A stretch of DNA of 64,000 bases, from assembly GCA_023269235.1 (NCBI GenBank), contig JAHFTW010000004.1, forward strand, positions 1-64,000. Reading direction: 5' to 3'. A program made the translations under genes and the position numbers. The notes beneath the pieces are model-generated. The model was given only the letters and a program-made list of their open reading frames with translations, ran no database searches and was not told the origin of the DNA. Source of the DNA: Thermoplasmata archaeon. GTDB lineage: Archaea; Thermoplasmatota; E2; JACPAO01; JAHFTW01. Shown piece by piece: positions 10,692 through 61,314 of the stretch (position 1 is its first letter; every line of letters begins with the position of its first letter).

Positions 10692-11522
10692 TTAGCGCGG
10701 ATTGTGGACCGGGACGCCGGCCTCGTTGGCCCACGCCGTTGCCTTCTGGCGCAGGGCCCCGTTCATCCCCTTGTGGTGGAGGTGCAGCCCGGCGCAGCCC
10801 GAGGTCTGCTCGACCGCGTGGCGCAGCAAGGCGACCGGGTCGGCGGCGGCTTCGAGACCGTGGTTGGGGATGAGGTGGCCGAAGTCGGCCTCCCCGGCCA
10901 GCGCCATGTCCGTCGCGCGCGGCGCGTAGTGACCGCCCCCGACGCCGACGAGGACGGGGCCCGCGCAGCGCCCGTCGCCCGCGAGGACGTCGAGGATGGC
11001 GTTGGCGACCGCCTGGCCGGAGGCGGGGTCGCCGTACCACGTGGCGTCGGAGCCGATCTCCACGAACAACGTGGGGAAGGAGAGGAACGGGCCGTGGTGC
11101 GTCGCCTCGTACGCGACCTGGTGCGGCAGCCCGAGCACGCTGGCGTGGTGCCGCATGCGGCGCAGGAGGGCGCCCATGTCGCGGGGGGCCGCGGGCACGA
11201 GCTTGCCGGGGTGGCCGCCGTAGCGCGCCTCGCCCGGGTTGCCGATCGGGTGCACGGTCAGGCTCGGTGTCCCCGACGCGGCCGCGTGCTTGGAGAGGAA
11301 CCAGACATCGCGGATGGGGAGGGCCGTCGCGCGCAAATCGGCGTCGAGCGCCTCGTCCGTGATGCTCGGGCCGTCGATCTGGACGAGCAGGGCCTCGCTG
11401 CGGGCCCAGAACGGGTGGCCGCGGAACGTCCTGCCGGTCTCCTCCCAAGTCCCCGACGCCAGCAGCCGGTCGCGCAGGTTCACAGAGGCCGCGTCGCCGC
11501 GATTGCAGACCAGGACGCGCAC
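10692..11522 (-). CDS. dtdA: D-aminoacyl-tRNA deacylase, archaeal type (DtdA/GEK1)
   Basis: A 276-residue enzyme that hydrolyses D-amino acids mischarged on tRNA. The archaeal/plant DtdA fold is recognisable by WFLSKHAAASGTPSLTVHPIGN near residue 75, the block YEATHHGPFLSFPTLFVEIGS near 145, VGVGGGHYAPRATDMAL near 195, and the C-terminal GLHLHHKGMNGALRQ. These His- and Glu-rich blocks hold the metal site in the family. It is unrelated to bacterial DTD. The stop lies 22 bases before the exporter start, so the two may be co-transcribed. Confidence 0.93.
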   Translation of the reverse strand: MRVLVCNRGDAASVNLRDRLLASGTWEETGRTFRGHPFWARSEALLVQIDGPSITDEALDADLRATALPIRDVWFLSKHAAASGTPSLTVHPIGNPGEARYGGHPGKLVPAAPRDMGALLRRMRHHASVLGLPHQVAYEATHHGPFLSFPTLFVEIGSDATWYGDPASGQAVANAILDVLAGDGRCAGPVLVGVGGGHYAPRATDMALAGEADFGHLIPNHGLEAAADPVALLRHAVEQTSGCAGLHLHHKGMNGALRQKATAWANEAGVPVHNPR

Positions 11523-11595
11523 AGGAGGGCGACCTCGGGCGACCTCATGGCCTCGCCGCTTCGTCTATCAACCCCCTCGGGCATGGTTTCGCGCC

Positions 11596-12774
11596 ATGGC
11601 ATTCGGACGCAAGAAGACCAAGCAGGCCGCCGACGACGGCGCGGAGCAGACCCTCGAGGCCGACGTCCCCGTCGAGCAGCGCGGCACCATCTCGCTCGTC
11701 CTCGAGCCCGGGCGCGTCAAGCACGTCCACTTCGACGGCCGCAACGCCCCTGCGGCGCCTGCCCCCGAGCCGCGCCCGGAGCCCGTCGCCCTCCCCGAAG
11801 CCGCGCCCGCGCCGGTCCCTGCTGGCCGCCGCAGCACGCTCTACGAGACCGACCGCGGCAACCAGGTCGTCGCCTACGAGTCCGGCGACGACCGGAAGTT
11901 CGCCACCACGAGCCCCTGGGGCGAGCGCCCCTTCGACCCCGCCACCGACGTGGACCCGCTCGTCAAGGACGTCCCGCTGGAGCGCACGTACCATGAGGTC
12001 ATCCCCGTCGCCCCCGTCGAGCAGGTCCCCCCGCGCGTCGTCGAGTCGGCCTGGGAACCCGCCGGCGGCCCGCGCGTCCGCACCCTCAAGTCCACGGAGC
12101 CCAAGAAGGCGAAAAAGGCCCGGAAGGCGCGCAAGCCCACCCGCAAGCCGGTCGTCCGCAAGGTCAAGCGCGCTCCGCGCAAGCCGCACAGCGACTTCCC
12201 CGGCGACGACCACCTTGTCATCGACCTCGAGGGCATCGGCCCGGTGTACGCCAAGCGCCTGCAGAAGCAGGGGGTCTACACGACGAGCCGCCTCGCGTTC
12301 GAGAAGCCCGGCAACCTCGCCAAACGCATCAAGGCTCCCCGCAAGCTCGTCAAGAACTGGCGCAACATGGCCGAACTCATCAAGGTCAAGGGCATCGGCA
12401 AGCAGTACGCCGAGGTCCTGGTGCGCGCCGGCGTCAAGGGCATCGACGACCTCAAGCAGCGTGAGCCCGAAGCCCTGTCCAAGAAGGTCAACAAGTTCCT
12501 GCGCAGCGTGGACACCACCGTCATCGGCACCGGCGTCCATGCCAAGCGCGCCAAGGGCTGGATCAAGGCCGCCAAGCCCATGCGCCGCCGCCCCATCCCC
12601 GTTCCCCGCAAGGGCCCGCCGCAGACCGAGACCGTGAAGGGCTTCATCCAGAAGCTCCCCAAGTACGGCTCCAAGCCCAAGAAGGCCGCCAAGGCCAGCA
12701 AGGCGAAGGCGAGCCGCAAGCCGGCGCGCAAGGTCGCCCGGAAGGCCAAGAAGGCGACCCGCAAGAAGCGCTAA
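11596..12774 (+). CDS. helix-hairpin-helix (DUF4332-like) protein with histone-H1-like basic tail
   Basis: A 392-residue protein that does not match a characterised enzyme. Residues 1-150 are acidic and Pro/Ala-rich. Residues 165-195 are Lys/Arg-rich (KKAKKARKARKPTRKP). Residues 205-330 carry two helix-hairpin-helix repeats with DLEGIGPVYAKRLQKQG and IKVKGIGKQYAEVLVRAGV, as in DUF4332. Residues 355-392 are nearly all Lys, Ala, Arg and Ser, like a histone H1 tail. The combination suggests sequence-independent DNA binding, perhaps nucleoid packaging or repair. The ATG at 11596 is chosen because earlier codons overlap the divergent dtdA. Confidence 0.75.
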   Translation: MAFGRKKTKQAADDGAEQTLEADVPVEQRGTISLVLEPGRVKHVHFDGRNAPAAPAPEPRPEPVALPEAAPAPVPAGRRSTLYETDRGNQVVAYESGDDRKFATTSPWGERPFDPATDVDPLVKDVPLERTYHEVIPVAPVEQVPPRVVESAWEPAGGPRVRTLKSTEPKKAKKARKARKPTRKPVVRKVKRAPRKPHSDFPGDDHLVIDLEGIGPVYAKRLQKQGVYTTSRLAFEKPGNLAKRIKAPRKLVKNWRNMAELIKVKGIGKQYAEVLVRAGVKGIDDLKQREPEALSKKVNKFLRSVDTTVIGTGVHAKRAKGWIKAAKPMRRRPIPVPRKGPPQTETVKGFIQKLPKYGSKPKKAAKASKAKASRKPARKVARKAKKATRKKR

Positions 12775-23535: not shown

Positions 23536-24343
23536 CGGATGTCCCCCGTGCGCCGCAGTTGCGGAACGAGGCGAGGGTGGCACCGTCAGGCACCACGCCC
23601 TCGATTACGGCGGGGTCCTTCGTGACGGCCAGGACGGGGAGGCGGGTTGCGCCCTGGAAGAAGAAAAGGTCATCTTCCAGGTTGTCGGGAGTGAAGGCCG
23701 AGAACACGGCCTTGAAGGGATGGCCCGGCGCCGCGGGGTCGAGGTTGCGTGCCGCGGAGATGACTCCGTCGCCCGTCCCATGATCTGCCGTCTCGACCAA
23801 TCCGCAACCAGCGACGCCGACGGTCCACGAAACTGTGAAGGTCTGGATGACAGCGCCTGAGGAGGCCGCGGCCGGCGCGGCAACCTTGACCAGAAGAGTC
23901 CTGTTGGCGATGAGCACACCGTCGCTGACAACCAGTCTCGAGGTGTAGTTTCCGACGGCGGCATAGACGTGCGTGACGTTCGCGAGTGGCAGCTTGCCGG
24001 TCGCGTTGACGGTCTTGTCGCCGAAACTGAGGATGAAGGTGAGGTTGTCCTTGTCCGCGTCGGTGGCGTTGAAGGTGAACTTCGCCTTGAAGGCGGTCAC
24101 ATTGGCCTTGAAGGAGTTGATGACGGGGGCCGCGTTGGCCGTAGAGCCGGCCGCGGTCGCGCCGGACGAAGAGGTCGCCGCGCCCGTCGCGGTCGAGGCG
24201 GAGGTTCCAGCGCTGCTCGAGTTCTGGGTTCCGGACGAGGACGACCCGGCCAGGGTGGACGAGCTGGAGTCCGACTTGCTCGCGCAACCGGAGAACACTA
24301 GAGTCGCCACGAGGGCGATGCTAAGCAATGCGACACCACGCAT
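23516..24343 (-). CDS. Ser/Thr-rich lipoprotein with PKD-like domain
   Basis: A 275-residue secreted protein. Signal peptide and lipobox (ATLVFSGC) occupy the first 20 residues. Residues 22-72 are a Ser/Ala/Thr/Gly-rich linker, a likely O-glycosylated or disordered stalk. Residues 75-160 look like a PKD/cadherin-type beta domain (FTFNATDADKDNLTFILSFGD, then VTHVYAAVGNYTSRLVVSDG). The C-terminal 100 residues have two Cys and no recognised domain. Surface adhesion or substrate binding is a reasonable guess only. Confidence 0.75.
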   Translation of the reverse strand: MRGVALLSIALVATLVFSGCASKSDSSSSTLAGSSSSGTQNSSSAGTSASTATGAATSSSGATAAGSTANAAPVINSFKANVTAFKAKFTFNATDADKDNLTFILSFGDKTVNATGKLPLANVTHVYAAVGNYTSRLVVSDGVLIANRTLLVKVAAPAAASSGAVIQTFTVSWTVGVAGCGLVETADHGTGDGVISAARNLDPAAPGHPFKAVFSAFTPDNLEDDLFFFQGATRLPVLAVTKDPAVIEGVVPDGATLASFRNCGARGTSVTMTIG

Positions 24344-24393
24344 GGTCGTCTCAGGGGGAACCAGGGCTGAAAAGCCTTGTGGGGCCGCCCGGC

Positions 24394-25659
24394 TCAGGCC
24401 AGCAGCGCGTGTTGCTCGGCAACACTCGCGACCGCGAAGGCGGCGTTGTCGAGGCGGGTCCAGGCGCCGACCTCCGTCATGCCGGGGCCGGTGATGGCGA
24501 GGCCGACGGGTTTCTCGAAACGGAGCGCGAGCTCCTGCAGGGTCTTGGCGGTGGCGTGCGCGATGAGCTCGTCGTGGCGCGTCTCGCCCTGGATGATGCA
24601 GCCGATGACGATGACAGCGTCCACGTCGTCGCGCTTGAGGAGGTGCTGGGCGGCGAGCGGCGTGTCGTAGGCGCCGGGGACGCGCACGTGGGCGGCGAGG
24701 CTCAGGCCGAGGCGGTCGATCTCGCGGCGCGCCTTGGCGAGCATGGCGTCCGTGATGGCGAGGTTGAACGTGGCCTGCACGACGCCGACGCGGCAGGAGT
24801 CGGGGCCCTTGGGCTGCGGGGCGGGCCGAGGGGCGTCGCTGAAGTGCGGTTGGGAGGCTTGCACAGGTTGGGAAGGCCGCGGCGGCAGCGGCGACGGGGT
24901 GGGGGGCGGGAGGATGACCTCCTCGCGGTGGCCCTCGTCGTGGTGGATGACGGTCTTGATCGGGCCGTTCTCGACGGGCTCGCTCATCACGACGTCCGGG
25001 GCCGCGACGGCGGTGGCGGCGACGTCGGCCTGGGCGTCAAGCTCGGCGGCGTCCTCCTCTTGCTCGGTCGGCTTGGGGCGCGAGGGCGGGTCGTACACGG
25101 CGAAGCGCTTCGGGGTGACGACCTCGGCCTGCGGCTCCGGCATGCGGGCGAGGATGTCGGCCGCCCTGGGGGTGGAGGGCTCGCTGCGCAGGCCACGACC
25201 GGTGCGCGGGTTCTGGTCGAGGCCGGGGCGCTGGAACACCTCGAAGAGGCCGGTGTCCTCGACGGTCTCGGAAGGGGGCGGGAGGGGTTTGTCGGTGCGG
25301 GCGTGCGCCGGGGGCACGGAGCGCGCCGGCTGGCCGGGAAGGGACGGGACAGGCCAGCTCGCCGGGGCCGCCGAGCCGCCGGGGGCAGGGCGGGGAATCT
25401 CGGGGACACCGATGCCCTTCGCCAGGTTCGCCTTCGTCATGGGAGGCGTCGGGGCGTTGGGGTCCTTGGGCGGGAACTGGTAGCCCGCCTCCTTGAGGCC
25501 CTTGGACTTCCCGATGGGGCGGCCATGCTCGTCGAGGCGCGGCGGGGCCGTGTACTCCTCGAACTCGGGGGTCGCGTCCACCGTGCCGGCGGCAGCGGCG
25601 CGGGGGTCGGGCTGGCCCGCCTTGAGCATGCGCTCCACCTCCTTGCGGTCCAGTGCCAT
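24394..25659 (-). CDS. ribH: 6,7-dimethyl-8-ribityllumazine synthase with long disordered N-terminal extension
   Basis: The last 140 residues of this 421-residue protein are lumazine synthase. They have VGVVQATFNLAITDAM, VRVPGAYDTPLAAQHLL, VDAVIVIGCIIQGETRHDELIAHAT (catalytic His region) and EKPVGLAITGPGMTEVGA. The enzyme joins 5-amino-6-ribitylaminouracil to a C4 phosphate. Typical RibH proteins are only about 140-160 residues. Here residues 1-275 are an extra Pro/Ala/Glu/Asp-rich segment with short motifs and no fold I can name. The ATG at 25659 starts the extension. It is downstream of ribC and upstream of no other flavin gene. Confidence 0.88.
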   Translation of the reverse strand: MALDRKEVERMLKAGQPDPRAAAAGTVDATPEFEEYTAPPRLDEHGRPIGKSKGLKEAGYQFPPKDPNAPTPPMTKANLAKGIGVPEIPRPAPGGSAAPASWPVPSLPGQPARSVPPAHARTDKPLPPPSETVEDTGLFEVFQRPGLDQNPRTGRGLRSEPSTPRAADILARMPEPQAEVVTPKRFAVYDPPSRPKPTEQEEDAAELDAQADVAATAVAAPDVVMSEPVENGPIKTVIHHDEGHREEVILPPPTPSPLPPRPSQPVQASQPHFSDAPRPAPQPKGPDSCRVGVVQATFNLAITDAMLAKARREIDRLGLSLAAHVRVPGAYDTPLAAQHLLKRDDVDAVIVIGCIIQGETRHDELIAHATAKTLQELALRFEKPVGLAITGPGMTEVGAWTRLDNAAFAVASVAEQHALLA

Positions 25660-25717
25660 CCCAATCCCCTGGACGCCTACCTGGCTTGAAGGTTTTGAGT
25701 TCTGTGCCTGGGTCGTC

Positions 25718-26371
25718 TCAGGAGGGGCGCAGGTGGCGGGTCTCGCTCCGCTTGGGGTCGGCGGCGCCGAGGTCGCCGAAGCCCTGGCGTTGGCCCGTGC
25801 CGGCGCGCTTGACCAGCTCCTCCGGCTTCTCAAGGAGCCAGAAGGCGTTGACGGCGTGCTCCGCGACGCGGTTCTCGGTGACCTGGATGAGCTGCGCGTC
25901 GTCCTTCGCCTCGTCCATGTGGACGAAGACCTCCAGGATGTGCGACGAGGTCAGGAGCTGGGCCTGCGCGATGGCGAGGCTCGCCTCGTGGCCGCACTGC
26001 TTGTCAATGGGCTCGGGGCCGACCATGCCGCAGGCGACGACGATGGCGCAGCCGTCCTCGATGAGACGCTGGGCGGCGACGGCGAGGTCCTTGAAGCCGG
26101 GGACGGTGCGGCGGATGACGCGGCTCCCGGGGATGCCGAGGCCTTGGAGGGTGCGCACGGCGATGGCGCCCATGTTGGTGGTGCTGAACGTGGTGTCGAC
26201 CACGCCGTAGACTGGGGCGCCGGACGGCGTGCCCGTGGCCGTGGACTGCGTGGTGCTGGGCTTGTTGGCCAGGACCTCGTAGCCGAGGCGGCGCTCGATG
26301 GAGCGGGCCGTGACGGTGCGCGTGGCGGGGGCCGTCGGCTGCTCCTCCGGCGGCTTCCACATGAATCCCAT
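25718..26371 (-). CDS. ribC: riboflavin synthase, archaeal type
   Basis: A 217-residue enzyme, evolutionarily related to lumazine synthase, that dismutates two lumazines to riboflavin. Signatures: YGVVDTTFSTTNMGAIAVRTL, VIRRTVPGFKDLAVAAQRLIEDG, CGHEASLAIAQAQLLTSSHILEVFVHMDEAKDD and HAVNAFWLLEKPEELVKRAGTGQRQGFGD. About 40 extra residues (Pro/Thr-rich) precede the catalytic fold, and the C-terminus is longer than usual. The ATG at 26371 is preceded by TTTAGC about 25 bases upstream (26393-26398), a likely promoter. It is co-directional with ribH, 58 bases upstream. Confidence 0.9.
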   Translation of the reverse strand: MGFMWKPPEEQPTAPATRTVTARSIERRLGYEVLANKPSTTQSTATGTPSGAPVYGVVDTTFSTTNMGAIAVRTLQGLGIPGSRVIRRTVPGFKDLAVAAQRLIEDGCAIVVACGMVGPEPIDKQCGHEASLAIAQAQLLTSSHILEVFVHMDEAKDDAQLIQVTENRVAEHAVNAFWLLEKPEELVKRAGTGQRQGFGDLGAADPKRSETRHLRPS

Positions 26372-26498: not shown

Positions 26499-26942
26499 AT
26501 GGCCAACCGGCCGCCCGCATGGCCCCTCCTCCTCATCATCGTCCTCGCCGCAGGGTGCAGCGCCCCGTCCGGCACGACGCCCAGGACGACGTCCACGACC
26601 GGGTCCACCGTCGAGCCTCAAGTGATCGGCGAAGGGAGCTACGTCCTGGGCCTCCCGGACAACGGTCCCGTCAAGGTCTTGGTGGGCCTGGAGTTCGAGG
26701 TTCCGGCCAACGCCACGCACCTCCAAGTTCTTCTGACGGCCACCCAGGGCGCCAGCTTCGGGTTCAAGGCGTCCGGCGTCGCGGGGTGCGACCACGCCTA
26801 CGCAAGCCCGCTCCTGCCTGACAGCCACCCCATCCTGTACACGTGCGACACGACGTCGGGCAGTCATCTCCTGCGGTTCACGGAGGATGGCGGCAACATC
26901 CATTTCGACGTCAGCGTGACGGCGTTGGCGCCTCAGGGGTAG
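26499..26942 (+). CDS. small secreted lipoprotein, function unknown
   Basis: A 147-residue protein with a signal peptide and lipobox (LLIIVLAAGC) and a short Thr/Ser linker. It then has one small beta-rich domain with two Cys pairs' worth of cysteines (VAGCDHAY, LYTCDTTSG). There is no recognised family. It is inserted between ribC and ribL on the opposite strand and its end overlaps ribL by 10 bases. Confidence 0.6.
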   Translation: MANRPPAWPLLLIIVLAAGCSAPSGTTPRTTSTTGSTVEPQVIGEGSYVLGLPDNGPVKVLVGLEFEVPANATHLQVLLTATQGASFGFKASGVAGCDHAYASPLLPDSHPILYTCDTTSGSHLLRFTEDGGNIHFDVSVTALAPQG

Positions 26943-27418
26943 AGGCTCTGGGACGCCGCCCGGGCGGCGACCTTCTCGATGATCTTGCGCGTGCCATCGA
27001 GGTCGCCCATGAAATGGGGCAAGCGAACCACTTTGCAAGGGACGCCGCGGGCGGCGCAGGCGGCGGCGACCTTGGCCTCGTCATAGGCCTGGTCGAAGCC
27101 GAGCGCGAAGACGTCGGGGCGCAACTCCTCGATGATGCGGTAGTAGTCGCCGTGGTGGCCAAGCACGGCCTGGTCCACGGCCTTGAGGGCCGCGACCATG
27201 CGGCGGCGGTGCTCCTCGGGCGTGATGGGGGCGTGCTTCTCGCGCGCCGCGGAGGCGTCGCGGGCGAGGACGACGACCAGCTCGTCGCCGAGCGCCCTGG
27301 CGGCCTCCAGCATCGCGATGTGGCCGGGGTGCAAGAGGTCGAAGACGCCGGTCGTCATGACGCGCACGTGCGGCCGCGGGGCGGACGCCTGAGGGGCGGT
27401 CGCGGCGGCCTCGTTCAC
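26933..27418 (-). CDS. ribL: FAD synthase, archaeal RibL type
   Basis: A 161-residue nucleotidyltransferase that adenylates FMN to FAD in archaea. The motif GVFDLLHPGH (near residue 23) is the cytidylyltransferase-type HxGH site, followed by LARDASAAREK and an R-x-x-M-V-A-A-L-K segment. ALGFDQAYDEAKVAAAC matches the archaeal enzyme. The start is GTG at 27418, overlapping the ribB stop (GTGA), so expression is coupled to ribB. An ATG near residue 20 is too close to the active site. Confidence 0.9.
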   Translation of the reverse strand: MNEAAATAPQASAPRPHVRVMTTGVFDLLHPGHIAMLEAARALGDELVVVLARDASAAREKHAPITPEEHRRRMVAALKAVDQAVLGHHGDYYRIIEELRPDVFALGFDQAYDEAKVAAACAARGVPCKVVRLPHFMGDLDGTRKIIEKVAARAASQSLYP

Positions 27419-28134
27419 GCCGGGACGGTCGCCTTCCACGCCGCGACGACGTCGGCGCCGGTCAAAAAGACCAACCCGTGCTTCTTGGCGTACGTCTGGG
27501 CGTCGGCCTTCGAGAGGGCGCGGCCCGTGCTGGGGTCCAGCATCTCGCAAATCGAGGTGCTCGGGACGAGGCCGGCAAGGCGCGCCAGCTCGAGCGAGAG
27601 CTCGGTGTGGCCTTGGCGCTTGGCGAGGCCGCCGGGGTGGCCGTTGAGGAGGATGGCGTGGCCGGGCGTGCGGAACTGCGCGCCGAACTCCTGCTGTGCC
27701 GCGTGGGCGGCCTTCGACCCGATGCCATCGAGAAAGCGTGCGAGTTCCGTGATGGTGAGGCTGCGGTCCCCGTCGGGAATTCCCGTGAAGGTCTTGCGGT
27801 GGTTGATGGTGATGCCGAAACTGGACTTTGAGGGGTCGTAGCGCAGGTCGTTGGCGCGCATGTGCGCGAGGACCGGGTGCGCGGCGCTCATCCCGGAGAG
27901 CAGGTCGGCGGCGAACGGGAGGCCGAGCTTCTGGTGGTGCTCCGGGGCGACGGTGGTGCACAGAAGGCCGCCGCCGTCGGTGCGCAGGGCGCGGATGGCC
28001 TCCGGGGTCGCGAACTGGGAGGCGACGACCATGTCGGTCTCGCCTTCGCGGCCGTCGGCGTCGTACAGGAGGACGATCTGGCCGGCCTGGAGGGCGGAGA
28101 GGGCGGCAGGCAGCGGGCCGGCGCTGGAGGGCAC
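27415..28134 (-). CDS. ribB: 3,4-dihydroxy-2-butanone-4-phosphate synthase
   Basis: The enzyme converts ribulose 5-phosphate to the C4 unit used by RibH. Family residues are seen in YDADGREGETDMVVASQFA, ALRTDGGGLLCTTV, FGITINHRKTFTGIPDGDRSLTI and FRTPGHAILLNGHPGGLAKRQGHTELSLELARLAGL. The start is uncertain: the ORF is open from a TTG at 28182, but no ATG exists and I favour the GTG at 28134, which leaves 239 residues. RibL follows with a GTGA overlap. An inverted repeat lies upstream at 28181-28201. Confidence 0.88.
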   Translation of the reverse strand: MPSSAGPLPAALSALQAGQIVLLYDADGREGETDMVVASQFATPEAIRALRTDGGGLLCTTVAPEHHQKLGLPFAADLLSGMSAAHPVLAHMRANDLRYDPSKSSFGITINHRKTFTGIPDGDRSLTITELARFLDGIGSKAAHAAQQEFGAQFRTPGHAILLNGHPGGLAKRQGHTELSLELARLAGLVPSTSICEMLDPSTGRALSKADAQTYAKKHGLVFLTGADVVAAWKATVPA

Positions 28135-28180
28135 GATGCCGTCCAGCCCAGGCGAGGATATCAAAGGTGAGTTTGGAGCC

Positions 28181-28201
28181 AAAAACGAGTAATTCGTTTT
28201 T
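28181..28201. repeat. perfect inverted repeat upstream of ribB
   Basis: AAAAACGA, then GTAAT, then TCGTTTTT: an 8-base perfect inverted repeat around a 5-base centre, in an A/T-rich patch. It lies 47 bases upstream of the proposed ribB GTG and overlaps the alternative TTG start. The position suits a repressor operator covering the promoter of the ribB-ribL pair. Confidence 0.55.
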
Positions 28202-55733: not shown

Positions 55734-56909
55734 CTATCCGTAACCCAGGTCGTTGTCCTTTGTTGGCGGCTTGACGGCTTCGGACAGAAGGCCACGGCGA
55801 AGCTCGTCGTCGAATTCCTGCTGGGAGATCTTGCCGCGCTTGAGGTCGATGTACAGGGAGCCGATGCGTTCCGCAGGGGACTTTGACACGTTGACACCGG
55901 GAAGAAGATCGCGGCGAGCCATGCGGTCGTCGATGGTGGGCTGGTTGTAGTGTTTCTCGAAGATTTTTGCCGTGATTCCCAACTGTTCGCGCGCAAGGCG
56001 TGGGTTGTCTCGCGCCATGTGCGTGCCCACACTCTTGCGAGGAACATGGGTGGTTACGCGCTTGCGCAATCCCGCCAATTCGGCCAATTTGTGAAGACCT
56101 TCGTTGACCGTCTTGTACGTCACGACAGCCCCACGGGGACCCATGAGGAGAGGAGTTTTGTCCTCGCCTTGCCATGTACCGGCCTTGATGAGGAAGGCGC
56201 GCTGCTCCGCAATTGCGCGCAGGGCTCGATCCGTAACGAGCGCCTCGTGGGATTCCTTGTTCTTGACCTTGGGAAAATTGATGATCCCGCGGTGGAAATC
56301 TACCTGCTGGAACGTGGTTTTCGGGGAGCCAATTGAATCCCAACGTCCGGCGCTGCTCATGGCGACCTCGAGGAAGAGGCCGACCGCGTTGCGGTAGTGG
56401 GCGTTCTGCATTCCGAGCTCCGGAAGGTGGCTCAGCATGGCTTCCATGTCCTCGATTGTAAGGTGGTCGCCTTGCTTGGCGGTCTGGCGAAAGACCTTCA
56501 TTTTGAGGCAGCCGTCAGTGCCGGGTCGCTGGTCCCCTTGTCCCATTAGCAAATTTTGGACGGAATTCCAATCTTTCGAGAGGTTATGACAGTAATTTTC
56601 GGAGAGAATTTCGCTTTGGATCTGCGCTCTAAGAAACGCTCGGTATTCCGTGATGGACTTCGTGTCAACTGTCGCCATGTCGAGGCCGCGCTGGGCCAAG
56701 TCGCGGAGGATTTTGCAAAGCACCACAGTCTTGTTTCGCTTAGTGCTGGGCTCGAGGATGCGCTTAGCGTGAAAGTCCTCCATGATGAGATCGGCTGCCT
56801 GCTTTGGCGGAAGACCGGCGTAGCGGGCGCGGTCAATGACCTCGACTTTGGCTGCCTCGGGCGCCACGAAGGAGCCGAAGCTGGGCTTAGTGGACTTCGG
56901 GGTCGTCAC
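55734..56909 (-). CDS. tyrosine recombinase 3 of the island operon
   Basis: A 391-residue site-specific recombinase. I start it at GTG 56909 because the upstream frame overlaps another gene. The N-terminal SAM-like core-binding domain spans 20-160. Catalytic elements: Arg in SSAGRWDSIG, Lys in FPKVKNKESHE, His and Arg in TTHVPRKSVGTHMA, and the nucleophile Tyr in EKHYNQP. The second His is replaced (QLGITAK). The C-terminus has a SHOCT-like segment (GSLYIDLKRGKISQQEFDDEL). It is the most intact of three recombinase-like proteins of this operon. Confidence 0.75.
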   Translation of the reverse strand: MTTPKSTKPSFGSFVAPEAAKVEVIDRARYAGLPPKQAADLIMEDFHAKRILEPSTKRNKTVVLCKILRDLAQRGLDMATVDTKSITEYRAFLRAQIQSEILSENYCHNLSKDWNSVQNLLMGQGDQRPGTDGCLKMKVFRQTAKQGDHLTIEDMEAMLSHLPELGMQNAHYRNAVGLFLEVAMSSAGRWDSIGSPKTTFQQVDFHRGIINFPKVKNKESHEALVTDRALRAIAEQRAFLIKAGTWQGEDKTPLLMGPRGAVVTYKTVNEGLHKLAELAGLRKRVTTHVPRKSVGTHMARDNPRLAREQLGITAKIFEKHYNQPTIDDRMARRDLLPGVNVSKSPAERIGSLYIDLKRGKISQQEFDDELRRGLLSEAVKPPTKDNDLGYG

Positions 56910-57213
56910 GGACGTCCGCCTCCTCTTTGGCTTGACGGATGGGCAACTGGCCAAGGCCGCGGAGAACGTGGCGGGTCCGGACCTTCGGAGTCGCGGGAGT
57001 GCGGCCTTGGATTTGCCTCGAGGTGGCCTGCGCTTGCCATGACCTGGCAATCGCGGCGATGAGGTCCGTGACGAGGTCTTGGATCGCTTCATCGAGTTCG
57101 TCGACGGCATCGTCTTCCATGCTGCTTGCGCCCGTCTGGTCAAGCACTCGCTTGCGCAGTGTGGCCTTGCTTGCGTGATGGATCCCGTGCTTCGGGGGTT
57201 CGCGCTTGGTCAT
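56887..57213 (-). CDS. putative histone-fold protein in the recombinase operon
   Basis: A 108-residue protein. Residues 15-85 follow the histone-fold plan: a short helix with basic residues (SKATLRKRVLDQTGA), a loop, a long amphipathic helix (EDDAVDELDEAIQDLVTDLIAAIARSW), a loop with Arg-Thr, and a final short helix (PKVRTRHVLRGLG). The match is by pattern only. The ATG at 57213 is 8 bases after the nuclease stop; the 3' end overlaps recombinase 3 by 23 bases. It may fold DNA at recombination sites. Confidence 0.45.
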   Translation of the reverse strand: MTKREPPKHGIHHASKATLRKRVLDQTGASSMEDDAVDELDEAIQDLVTDLIAAIARSWQAQATSRQIQGRTPATPKVRTRHVLRGLGQLPIRQAKEEADVRDDPEVH

Positions 57214-57220
57214 GGGCGCC

Positions 57221-57718
57221 TCAACGAGGATTAGCGCCCTCGGGCGCTCCAGCTTGGTCATCACGGTCTTCACTGGCCGCCGGCGCGGCCCGCCCCACGG
57301 CCGCGCGGCGAACCACGTGGGCATGATCTCCGTCGATGGCCTGGTAGTTGTTGCAGCGGCGGTAAATCTGGAAGTACAGGGTCTGCCGGGGCTTGCCGTT
57401 GCGGCCATCCAGGCGCTTGCCGCCGCCAATCCAGCGCCAGATTTCCACCGAGTCGTGGGTATCGTTCCACGGGACGGCCTCAAGTTCGCGAATCTTGCGT
57501 CCGATGTTGCGGCCGCCCGTCACCTGAACCCAACGCGTTGGGCCCGAGTTCTTGGCGAGGAGGTCGATGCAGCCGAAGACGTCACTGGCGACCATAATCC
57601 ACCCGCGGCCCGTGCGAATCGGTGTTCGCGTGCAGCGATGCACCGTGTAGCCTTGGTCTTCGAGGATGCGGATGGCCTCGCGTTCGATGGCGGTTCCTTT
57701 GGCGACATTGTTGGCCAT
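57221..57718 (-). CDS. resolvase-like (PD-(D/E)XK fold) protein in the recombinase operon
   Basis: A 165-residue protein resembling Holliday junction resolvases of the Hjc type or related nuclease folds. It opens KGTAIEREAIRILEDQGYTVHRC (basic helix with Glu), then SDVFGCIDLLAKN (Asp) and RWVQVTGGRN. The last strand would normally read E/Q-x-K but here is QVT, so the catalytic Lys may be missing or shifted. The C-terminal 40 residues are Arg/Ala-rich. It lies 2 bases from recombinase 2. Confidence 0.5.
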   Translation of the reverse strand: MANNVAKGTAIEREAIRILEDQGYTVHRCTRTPIRTGRGWIMVASDVFGCIDLLAKNSGPTRWVQVTGGRNIGRKIRELEAVPWNDTHDSVEIWRWIGGGKRLDGRNGKPRQTLYFQIYRRCNNYQAIDGDHAHVVRRAAVGRAAPAASEDRDDQAGAPEGANPR

Positions 57719-57719
57719 G

Positions 57720-58958
57720 CTAGTCCTCCGCGAGAGCCAGTTCGGCGCCGAGCTCCAACCGAAGCTGGTCCGCGTCGAGGGGAATCGTGTTCGCGTTGCG
57801 CAGAGGGTGGCCGCAGTGACGACACGCCTGGTCCGCTAGGCCGTGTGGGCCGCGGCAGCGCGTGCAATACCTGCCCTTCGTTGGCTTGCCCTGGAGTTCA
57901 TCCATAATTTGGACGACTTCCTCGAGCCCCAGTTTCGTGTAGCGCATGCCCATTTGACTCATCGGGCTGTGTGCGAACTTGAGGCGCATGTCGCGATCTG
58001 AGTCTCCACTGGCTGCGGCCTGGTTGTGGCCGAGCCGGCGGAACGATTGCACCCCATAGTAGGGCAGTTTGGCCTTGCCGCAGGCACGCCGAATCAGGCG
58101 ATCAGCCGTCGCTCGGTGCATCGGGGCGCAGACTCCTTTGCTAGCCTGCCACGGATCGGGAAGGAGAGGGGCGTTGGGGTCGTCCTTCTTCGGATGCAAA
58201 GACAGCAGGTGGAGGAGGGCGTTTGTTTGGTCGCGGTTGTGGTAGAGGGTCACGGTCTTCTTGTTGCGGTAGCCGCGCGGCACGTCGACGGTGGCCAAGT
58301 CGCCCTCGATGCGCAGGTGTTTCCGGGCGGTGCGCAGGAAGGGTGTGCCGCGGGTGTGGGGAAGAATCTGGATTAGGTACGTAGCGGTGGCCTTGTGCAG
58401 TGCCGGGAGCCGAATTTTCGGGCAGGCAGCCAGCATCTTGACGCGGTGCTCCTCCTTGAGCCAAGTTCTCTTCCGGGGTCGGCCTTTTGGCAGGTCAATG
58501 AGGCCATCTTGGTAGACCAGGTTCCGCGCCTGCTCTTCGGCCTCCTTGGTTGTCACGCGTTGGCGAATCAGATGGAAGCGAACGTACTCGGAAAGTTGCT
58601 TCATCTGTTCACGGCGAGTGCTGGCCGAAACGGGCCGCATGCGAGTTTCGTGAAGCTTCGTTCCCGCCCGAGGGTACTGAGGCCATGCAGGCGTGTTTGC
58701 CCAAGCGCGTACGACTTCCTGGGACGGCGGTGCCAGCGAGGCGCTTCCGACCAAAGTGGCCATGCGGACCAGAGGCCGGAGCACGTCCTGAACCGTAGAG
58801 AGGGTCTTGCGGTTGCGCGCCAAGTTGGCCAAGTAGGCATGAACCTCGCGGACTTGTCGTTCCGTGTTCAAACGTGAAAGGTGACTCAGCACTTGCACTG
58901 CCTCGCGTCGGTGCCAGGTCTTCTTGACCCACGTTTCAATGTCGGGTGGCAGCTTCAT
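57720..58958 (-). CDS. tyrosine recombinase-like protein 2 with zinc ribbon
   Basis: A 412-residue protein. The catalytic region is recognisable at 200-345: Arg in ILPHTRGTPFLRTARK, Lys in YRNKKTVTLY, a shifted H-x-x-R in GVQSFRRLGHNQAAASG (Gln replaces His), a His in KFAHSPMSQ and Tyr in MRYTKLG. The C-terminus carries a Cys4 ribbon (CTRCRGPHGLADQACRHC). Related in plan to the upstream protein. TAG and ATG of adjacent genes lie in the same TAGCATG junction, suggesting duplication of coupling sites. Confidence 0.6.
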   Translation of the reverse strand: MKLPPDIETWVKKTWHRREAVQVLSHLSRLNTERQVREVHAYLANLARNRKTLSTVQDVLRPLVRMATLVGSASLAPPSQEVVRAWANTPAWPQYPRAGTKLHETRMRPVSASTRREQMKQLSEYVRFHLIRQRVTTKEAEEQARNLVYQDGLIDLPKGRPRKRTWLKEEHRVKMLAACPKIRLPALHKATATYLIQILPHTRGTPFLRTARKHLRIEGDLATVDVPRGYRNKKTVTLYHNRDQTNALLHLLSLHPKKDDPNAPLLPDPWQASKGVCAPMHRATADRLIRRACGKAKLPYYGVQSFRRLGHNQAAASGDSDRDMRLKFAHSPMSQMGMRYTKLGLEEVVQIMDELQGKPTKGRYCTRCRGPHGLADQACRHCGHPLRNANTIPLDADQLRLELGAELALAED

Positions 58959-58959
58959 G

Positions 58960-60219
58960 CTAGTTCACCTTCTCGACGGCGGCGATGGCGGCCCGGATGC
59001 GTTGCTCCAGGCTTTGTCCGTTGACCTCGAGCAGGTCAGCCACGTCGCGCATGATTTTGGCACGAATGGCGTTGGCTTCGCTCAGGACATCTTCGGTGAG
59101 CTCGGTTCCGCACACGGGGCAGTACTGGTCGCCGGCTGCGTTGTTTGGGTTGCCGCATCCGACGCAGGCAACTAGGCCTGCGTCCGGGCCGGCCTGGCGG
59201 GCGGGTCCCCCGATGGGTCGGCCGGCCTTCTTGGCACGGTCTGCGTAGTCTCGCATGTAGTAGACTCGGTTCATGCTGCCAACGCCCATGATGTGGCTGA
59301 GAAACTGGTCGGGAACAGCGCGGCCCGCTAGGTAGAGCAGGTAGGCTTCCTGCATGGTGCGCGTGTTGACGCCTCGGACGACGGCCTTCTTGGACCAAAA
59401 CTTGACTTTGTACGCGAGATGGGCGCGACTCATCGGCTTGGTGGAATCAAGGGGGTCCGGGAACAGGAACTGGCGTTCGGGTTCGTTTGCCTTGACGTGG
59501 CGCACGAAGGCGCCCATGGTCTTGGCTTCGTGGTGGATGGGAACGATGCGTTCGTCCGGCCAGTTCCTCGTTGGGGGGACGCGAAGCAGGGCTCGCCCGC
59601 CTTCGAAGAAGACGGCCTCCATGCGGATGGCGCGCAGGTCCTGGCTGTGCACCCCGGTCCCGCTGAGCAAGTCCAATTGCGCCTTGCCTTCCAGGTCGGT
59701 CAAGCCGCGCATCTTGGCGATGTCTTCCCAGGAGCAACCGAGGGGGCGGTTGCTTCCCCAGGCAAGGTTGGAGCTCATGATGGGCGCCCTCCGGAGGCCT
59801 TCGTCGGCGCCGAAGCGGCTCTGGAGAAAGTAGAGAACGAAGCGTTGGTGCTCGTAGGCGACTTGGTTGCTTAGTGTCTGCCGCGGTTGTTCCGGGTTGG
59901 GAGTTGTGCGGTCGGTGAAGTACTCGTTGAAGAACACATCATCGAGGCTTTCCAATTCGCGCTCGCCGGCCGCTACGAGGTAGCTGCCGACGGCTTGCAC
60001 ACGGTTGACGATGGTGGAGGTCTGGACGCGTCGATCGCGCTTCAATCCGGTGCGGCCGTCGGGTGCGGTGGGGAGTTCTGCCGTCCACTCCGCCAGCGCC
60101 AGGGCGTTGTCCTGGTTGGGCACACACAGGACCTTCGTCATGATGTGGCGGCGGTGCTCGGAGTCCGGGATGGCGGCTTCGATGATGGTACGGACCTTGG
60201 CTTCGTGTTCCGGGTTCAT
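58960..60219 (-). CDS. tyrosine recombinase-like protein 1 with zinc ribbon, catalytically degenerate
   Basis: A 419-residue protein with the same plan as its neighbour: N-terminal helical domain, catalytic-type domain (170-340) and a Cys4 ribbon (CVGCGNPNNAAGDQYCPVC) near 355-375. The recombinase boxes align but most catalytic residues are replaced: TGVHSQDL has His for Arg, NTRTMQEA lacks the HxxR pair, and IMGVGSMNRVYY lacks the second His while keeping Tyr. It is probably a non-cutting DNA-binding partner. ATG overlaps the preceding stop (ATGA). Confidence 0.55.
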   Translation of the reverse strand: MNPEHEAKVRTIIEAAIPDSEHRRHIMTKVLCVPNQDNALALAEWTAELPTAPDGRTGLKRDRRVQTSTIVNRVQAVGSYLVAAGERELESLDDVFFNEYFTDRTTPNPEQPRQTLSNQVAYEHQRFVLYFLQSRFGADEGLRRAPIMSSNLAWGSNRPLGCSWEDIAKMRGLTDLEGKAQLDLLSGTGVHSQDLRAIRMEAVFFEGGRALLRVPPTRNWPDERIVPIHHEAKTMGAFVRHVKANEPERQFLFPDPLDSTKPMSRAHLAYKVKFWSKKAVVRGVNTRTMQEAYLLYLAGRAVPDQFLSHIMGVGSMNRVYYMRDYADRAKKAGRPIGGPARQAGPDAGLVACVGCGNPNNAAGDQYCPVCGTELTEDVLSEANAIRAKIMRDVADLLEVNGQSLEQRIRAAIAAVEKVN

Positions 60220-60542
60220 GTTTCGTCCTCCTGGATGATGGGCAGCGCCGCGGCGCCCGACCCCAGGCGCCGCCGCGCGCCAAGTCGTTCCTTCAGGGCC
60301 CGGAGATGGTCGTGGAATCGCAGGCGCGTTGCCCGCAGCATCTCCTCATGGCCGGCGTGTCGGGGGTTCTGCTTCTGGGCCATGGCGTCGCAAAGGTCTT
60401 GGGCCAACGCGAGCCGGGTCTGCGGGGGTGCCGATGCAATCATGAGGTTGGCCGCCAGGCGCCGGTCCTCGTCCCAGAACGTCTCGCGCACAATGCGCAA
60501 GGCGACATCGAGTTGGTACTCGGCATTCCGCGTGAGGTTCAT
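60216..60542 (-). CDS. small helical protein C of the recombinase operon
   Basis: A 108-residue protein predicted to be mostly helical (NAEYQLDVALRIVRETFWDED, then LALAQDLCDAMAQKQ and RLRFHDHLRALKERLG), with Arg-rich C-terminal part. It is coupled to both neighbours by ATGA overlaps. No family recognised. Conserved small partners like this are candidates for directionality or DNA-binding factors. Confidence 0.55.
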   Translation of the reverse strand: MNLTRNAEYQLDVALRIVRETFWDEDRRLAANLMIASAPPQTRLALAQDLCDAMAQKQNPRHAGHEEMLRATRLRFHDHLRALKERLGARRRLGSGAAALPIIQEDET

Positions 60543-60868
60543 TTCCGGGCCCTCCGTTCTGCCAGGTCAGTGAGCAGGCGTGCCGCCTTGACGAGCGAAG
60601 CCGAATCGACCTTGGCTGGGTGGAAGTGCTCTTCGTCGGGGTCAGACGAGAACAGGGCGGCGAGGCGCAGCGCCATGAGGTGCCGGCGGTTCCACAGGTT
60701 GTCGGACACGTTTTGAGCTGCGTCCAGGGCCGCTTGCGGTCCGCGGAGGCGTCCGACCTCCTCGACCATGACCGTGAGCAGCCACAGGAAGGGGCCGTCG
60801 GGGATGACGTCGTCCAGGATGCGGCGAGCCGTGCTGACCTTGTAGGCCGGAGAGTCGGTCAGGTTCAC
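60539..60868 (-). CDS. small helical protein B of the recombinase operon
   Basis: A 109-residue protein starting at GTG 60868, overlapping the upstream stop (GTGA). Helical segments such as STARRILDDVIPDGPFLWLL and NRRHLMALRLAALF are visible; the C-terminus is a Leu/Ala/Arg helix. It resembles protein C in length and in the sequence of its start (NLT...). Unknown function. Confidence 0.55.
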   Translation of the reverse strand: MNLTDSPAYKVSTARRILDDVIPDGPFLWLLTVMVEEVGRLRGPQAALDAAQNVSDNLWNRRHLMALRLAALFSSDPDEEHFHPAKVDSASLVKAARLLTDLAERRARK

Positions 60869-61314
60869 GCCGGCACCCCCGGCTTGGCCGCTGTGGGCCC
60901 GTTCTTGCAACCGTACGGCCCACGTGTAGCGACGTTTGTTGTAGCGATGGAAGTCATCGACGACAAATCGTCGTTGGACGTGCGCGCCGCCATGGCGGCG
61001 CGCTGCTCGGCGTCATTCAGGCGCCCAATGGCTGCCTCAGTCTTGGCGCGCAGAGCGTCATCAAGGCAGGCGCCGGCACTGGCGGGCGTGTGGGGATGGT
61101 CGGCGCAGTAGGCGTTGGCGAACTCGATGAGTTGCGGCGGGGCCTGAACGGGCTTCAGGTTGGCAAGGCCCGTGGAGCCGGGGACGCGCGCGAGGATGGC
61201 CTCGCCGCAGATCCAGGACTCGGTGGTTAGGTGGGTGTGGCCGTGGGGAATGCAAAAGATGTGGCTAAGGGTCGCGAGGGCTGCGGCGTTGGTCTTGGTG
61301 ATTTGGAGACTCAT
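60865..61314 (-). CDS. first protein of the recombinase operon (A), function unknown
   Basis: A 149-residue protein. Near the N-terminus CIPHGHTHLTTESWICGEAI has His and Cys clusters that could bind a metal. A helical central part (TKTEAAIGRLNDAEQRAAMAAR) and a disordered Ser/Thr-rich C-terminus follow. A TATA-like TTGTAAAGC (minus strand, 61351-61359) lies 41 bases upstream of the ATG. It starts the eight-gene run that ends with recombinase 3. Confidence 0.5.
   Translation of the reverse strand: MSLQITKTNAAALATLSHIFCIPHGHTHLTTESWICGEAILARVPGSTGLANLKPVQAPPQLIEFANAYCADHPHTPASAGACLDDALRAKTEAAIGRLNDAEQRAAMAARTSNDDLSSMTSIATTNVATRGPYGCKNGPTAAKPGVPA

Follow-up and report, generated by a model that had tools for sequence, protein, structure and literature searches.

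The window analysed here, a 64,000-nt stretch of the genome designated G000, carries genes for RibB, a RibL-like protein, RibC and RibH, all on the same strand and with RibH last; a small plus-strand ORF lies between RibL and RibC. The RibH (lumazine synthase, LS) gene is a single ORF at positions 24394–25659 of the minus strand, running from ATG to TGA and encoding 421 amino acids, and its extension begins directly downstream of RibC. The N-terminally extended LS described at this position in the initial annotation is real: one ORF spans it, the coding bias persists throughout, and the core matches LS profiles. The extension, previously estimated at approximately 275 residues, is indeed long, although its size is about 286 residues instead. 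The features of the locus are listed in Table 1.

Table 1. Features of the RibH gene and the neighbouring riboflavin genes in the window.
Feature	Position	Strand	Evidence
N-terminal extension of RibH, residues 1–286, Pro/Ala/acidic, mostly disordered	24802..25659	-	GC3 0.93, low AlphaFold pLDDT, no Pfam match
Predicted N-terminal helix, residues 5–13	25621..25647	-	AlphaFold pLDDT 84–88 over residues 1–20
Short motif PEFEEYTAP, residues 31–39, bounds approximate	25543..25569	-	Matches EFEVYT of G002; excess over shuffles
Second motif copy GLFEVFQRPG, residues 137–146	25222..25251	-	Excess over shuffles; cf. DEFEVYTRKG in G002
Possible third motif copy, degenerate, around FAVYDPP, residues ~182–192	25084..25116	-	Looser pattern; weak
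Possible helix, residues 199–211	25027..25065	-	AlphaFold, low to moderate confidence
Possible beta-hairpin, residues 234–250	24910..24960	-	AlphaFold pLDDT 70–80; absent from G005 model
Lumazine synthase core, residues 287–421 and stop; F298, H362 and R402 kept	24394..24801	-	PF00885, TIGR00114, pLDDT ~96, Foldseek, conserved columns
RibC, archaeal riboflavin synthase, ~50-residue N-terminal extension, start 26362 or 26371	25718..26362	-	TIGR01506 3.9e-48; starts, GC3
RibL-like FAD synthetase (cytidylyltransferase), start approximate	26936..27535	-	PF01467 4.3e-19
RibB, DHBP synthase	27415..28182	-	PF00926, TIGR00506

In terms of fold, the C-terminal part of RibH is an LS. Residues 289–411 matched PF00885 (8.5e-31; 107.2 bits against a cut-off of 26.7), and the protein scored 108.2 bits with TIGR00114, above the equivalog cut-off of 84.6. 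The core was modelled by AlphaFold with a pLDDT of approximately 96, and a Foldseek search retrieved the Aquifex aeolicus LS (1.6e-12), all 50 matches listed being LSs. The catalytic residues of LS are Phe22, His88 and Arg127 (PMC12871164), and F298, H362 and R402 of the window protein are taken as their equivalents from their positions in conserved motifs, not from a residue-by-residue structural superposition. H362 and R402 occupy columns that are invariant across the surveyed relatives, and F298 belongs to a near-invariant FN pair; the protein is likely to be enzymatically active. The core nevertheless evolves fast, with a terminal branch of 1.99 changes per site in the gene tree, and otherwise conserved positions 372, 373, 396 and 415 have been lost. 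The core fold, the catalytic residues and the RibC–RibH gene order are thus the same as in archaeal RibH (6,7-dimethyl-8-ribityllumazine synthase; PF00885, TIGR00114), whereas the ordinary RibH of the surveyed relatives has only around 135–165 residues and that of the window has some 286 more at its N-terminus.

The codon-position GC content of the extension (0.76/0.55/0.93) was close to that of the core (0.74/0.46/0.95), and GC3 was at least 0.83 in every 30-codon block. This bias is continuous with that of the core and supports translation of the extension. An ORF of 453 amino acids on the plus strand (24328–25689), antisense to RibH, showed an inverted codon pattern and was dismissed as a shadow. 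The first ATG of RibH (25659) has a moderate Shine–Dalgarno sequence (−4.9 kcal/mol), and 15% of in-frame positions were equal to it or better. No ATG was found immediately upstream of the core, and the sole in-frame start near there is a GTG at residue 266 (Shine–Dalgarno −1.7 kcal/mol); the window RibH has no credible internal start.

Residues 1–285 had no match in Pfam, and the whole protein had none in PHROG. Among the 43 called genes of the window, RibH contained the longest disordered run predicted with the simple TOP-IDP scale (128 residues; runner-up, 79). The AlphaFold pLDDT was below 50 over much of residues 24–231, so that the earlier description of the extension as disordered holds for most of its length, but not for the structured islands predicted at residues 1–20 (pLDDT 84–88), 41–50 (79) and 231–260 (70–80). 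Proline (19.5%) and alanine (12.5%) are prominent in its composition, and PEFEEYTAP is the sole EFE.[YTS]T-type site in the G000 genome. Elsewhere in the window, a called gene at 11239–12774 (511 amino acids), whose 5′ part may contain overcalled sequence, has a helix-hairpin-helix/DUF4332 region after a predicted disordered run of 79 residues. Consecutive genes at 55734–61314 score poorly for codon usage; they include one for a phage-integrase-family protein (PF00589), and the run is perhaps an integrated element.

Extended RibH proteins were sought in a class-wide survey of 80 genomes, in the phylum (390 Thermoplasmatota genomes, 361 of which had a match) and in 80 further contig loci. Besides that of G000, two genuine extensions were found among the matches listed from the 390 genomes, and none among the 80 further loci; a first contig scan with the full-length window RibH as the query gave 0 matches. 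RibH was not found in the incomplete assemblies of G001, from the same family, and G003, from the same order. The homologue check proposed in the initial annotation showed an extension in two genomes, G002 and G005, and nearly all relatives lack the arm. The RibH of G002 (same order; JAHWKR010000034.1, isolate 0813_bin23) has 331 amino acids and a TTG start that overlaps the RibC stop, with a Shine–Dalgarno sequence (−13.4 kcal/mol) stronger than that of any in-frame position tested. In G005 (HGW-Thermoplasmata-1, same class; PGXE01000044.1), RibH has 380 amino acids and a distal ATG preceded by AGGAGG (Shine–Dalgarno −8.3 kcal/mol). In both genomes, the extended gene lies directly 3′ of RibC and still has an ATG precisely where the core usually begins; in G005 this ATG follows a Shine–Dalgarno-like stretch (−7.0, with 11% of positions equally good).

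Long RibH frames in twelve other genomes (G335, G265, G079, G032, G116, G218, G297, G295, G293, G382, G307 and G026) were rejected as out-of-frame read-through because their codon pattern breaks at the core start, unlike that of the window RibH; the long frame of locus L094 was also read-through. Locus L039 of G003, which carries EFEVTT, looks by eye like a glycine dehydrogenase and not RibH. Separately, loci L104, L124 and L144 are archaeal-like RibH genes on MAG contigs that bear the labels Candidatus Binatus soli and Deltaproteobacteria, reflecting either transfer or binning error. In G001, an EAL-like ORF that looks bacterial by eye (L043; G001:C371, 8085–8636) follows RibC at the contig end, in the place expected for RibH, and this contig is possibly chimeric.

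The arms of the three extended proteins are about 200–290 residues long and differ in composition, being Pro/Ala-rich in G000 and G002 and Glu-rich in G005 (Glu 20.7%). The AlphaFold model of the G005 protein has a helix at residues 5–32, a long low-confidence stretch and then a helix leading into the core, so G000 and G005 have in common an anatomy of N-terminal helix, disordered linker and LS core. A short F-E-[V/E]-[Y/F/T] motif recurs in all three, as PEFEEYT and LFEVFQ in G000, DEFEVYT in G002 and three copies of EDFEVTS in G005. These copies exceeded the shuffle expectation (2 vs 0.012, 1 vs 0.011 and 3 vs 0.08, respectively), although the pattern was derived from the same three proteins, which makes the p-values optimistic, and those of G005 form a near-tandem repeat. 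The other window proteins contained one such site in 13,383 amino acids. The motif was not seen in other disordered tails across the G000 genome, where matches fell in other proteins, mostly enzymes that by eye look folded, and in the 390 genomes the repeat motif gave only isolated, chance-level matches outside G005, a control pattern likewise matching 4 genomes. Similarity between the extensions was weak and partly composition-driven (p = 0.02, 0.64 and 0.01). The three have no alignable domain in common, only the small motifs and, in two of them, an N-terminal helix. Homology of the helices of G000 and G005 was not significant (p = 0.51), and a single origin of the extension was not recovered, since G000, G002 and G005 do not fall together in the RibH gene tree, which is unreliable on this point given the very long G000 branch.

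The Pro/Thr-rich N-terminus of RibC that had been flagged as unusual also proved genuine: it comprises approximately 50 residues with GC3 of 0.93–1.0, and no start codon occurs from −49 to the core. However, RibC starts at the core in G002 and G005, so that among these three genomes the RibC extension is confined to G000. It is therefore not part of a conserved pair with the RibH arm, nor does it look as though the two had co-evolved as partners.

The termini of LS lie at the outer capsid surface in Bacillus subtilis and A. aeolicus (PMC7369331), and T=1 LS shells are about 16 nm across (PMC13376624). If a 60-mer is assumed, sixty RibH tails amount to 1.82 MDa and approximately 2200 nm3, whereas a whole 16-nm sphere holds approximately 2100 nm3. 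Because the tails would exceed the volume of the entire sphere, they could not lie inside a T=1 shell if such a 60-mer forms. Of the two roles suggested at the outset, to decorate or to fill a capsid-like shell, external decoration is plausible, in keeping with the surface position of LS N-termini, and filling is unlikely. Recruitment of cargo or other flavin enzymes, which the initial annotation also suggested, may be a role of the arm.

LS is one of the best-studied protein cages and is commonly used as a scaffold for display, and engineered LS nanoparticles with N-terminal fusions tolerate long additions, which are shown on the outside; those constructs are man-made, whereas the window RibH is natural. 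The bacterial LS/riboflavin synthase (RS) compartment of A. aeolicus and B. subtilis likewise involves a shell-type LS of the riboflavin pathway, but there a C-terminal signal on RS draws that enzyme into the shell, whereas at this locus LS itself carries the appendage. Such packing of RS via its own C-terminal signal has been predicted for bacteria only, among 166 organisms (PMC13376624), and archaeal RS is a pentameric LS paralogue (PMC7369331). The adjacent RS at our locus is RibC, not a trimeric RibE-type enzyme with a C-terminal cage-localisation signal. The arrangement of a helix and short motifs on a flexible linker resembles the disordered arms of CsoS2 and encapsulation peptides in scaffold/cargo systems, as a functional analogy for which no sequence relation is claimed. 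Bacterial microcompartment shell proteins (PF00936) were not found in the genomes of G000, G002 and G005, nor encapsulin (PF04454) in those of G000 and G005; G002 has one encapsulin (L183; G002:C59:26991–27749; PF04454, 1.3e-87).

Two readings of the arm deserve the most weight. The one we tentatively prefer is a working LS with a flexible, translated arm that tethers externally by its short motifs. It agrees with the coding signal, the distal Shine–Dalgarno sequences of G002 and G005, the catalytic set, the motif excess, the common anatomy and the surface position of LS termini; against it stand the lack of an arm in nearly all relatives, the weak arm-to-arm similarity and a tree that splits the three proteins. 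It is hardly ahead of an almost equally possible view, in which the arm serves as a non-specific brush, either entropic or for solubility, or arose as a nearly neutral expansion of low complexity that is tolerated since LS N-termini face the solvent; no specific partner would be involved. The genome-dependent composition, the lack of an alignable domain, the patchy distribution and the fast-evolving G000 core would all suit this view, whereas the motif excess in all three arms and the helices predicted in two would not, and long disordered stretches are not a general habit of this genome, no other called window gene having a disordered run of more than 79 residues.

The remaining explanations are less probable. 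The arm may be a propeptide or regulatory leader that is cleaved or bypassed, leaving an ordinary LS of ~150 residues as the working enzyme; in G002 and G005, internal initiation would perhaps yield two products. The ATG at the core start of both, with the Shine–Dalgarno-like site of G005, points in this direction, but the window RibH has no ATG there and its GTG at residue 266 lacks a Shine–Dalgarno sequence, and we regard this explanation as unlikely. Slightly less likely still is control of self-assembly, in which the motif or hairpin segments would bind LS itself, supply a missing edge beta-strand and steer assembly towards larger shells, shell–shell linkage or filaments. An edge beta-strand at the N-terminus is present in bacterial LS and is not known in archaeal LS, and the alternating, strand-like pattern of the motifs and the predicted hairpin would fit, although the hairpin is missing from the G005 model. 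Least likely by far is a start-site or assembly artefact, in which translation of RibH would not include the upstream part: high-GC genomes do yield long spurious frames, as in G335 and G265 among others, but the codon-position pattern here is continuous with the core, the arms come from three independent assemblies, and in both G002 and G005 a strong Shine–Dalgarno sequence precedes the distal start.

Under the tethering reading, the RibH core would assemble as other LSs do, with the arms projecting from the outside of the shell. The F-E-[V/E]-[Y/F/T] motifs and the N-terminal helix would then act as low-affinity, high-avidity tethers to partner proteins or to other shells, and tethering would cluster the late enzymes of the riboflavin pathway, the adjacent RS not being of the type that bacteria pack in the cage. 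An outside route of pathway clustering in archaea is conceivable, because RS packing is predicted for bacteria only and archaeal RS is a pentameric LS paralogue. The fullest form of this idea, a cage enzyme that organises the riboflavin pathway with its own multivalent, motif-bearing outside arms as an archaeal alternative to bacterial RS encapsulation, is improbable on present evidence. No LS with such an arm was described in the open-access literature searched, outside which most subscription journals fall. If its long arms do point outwards, this natural LS would allow a test of whether pathway clustering in archaea works from the shell exterior, and would also provide a natural model for display scaffolds.
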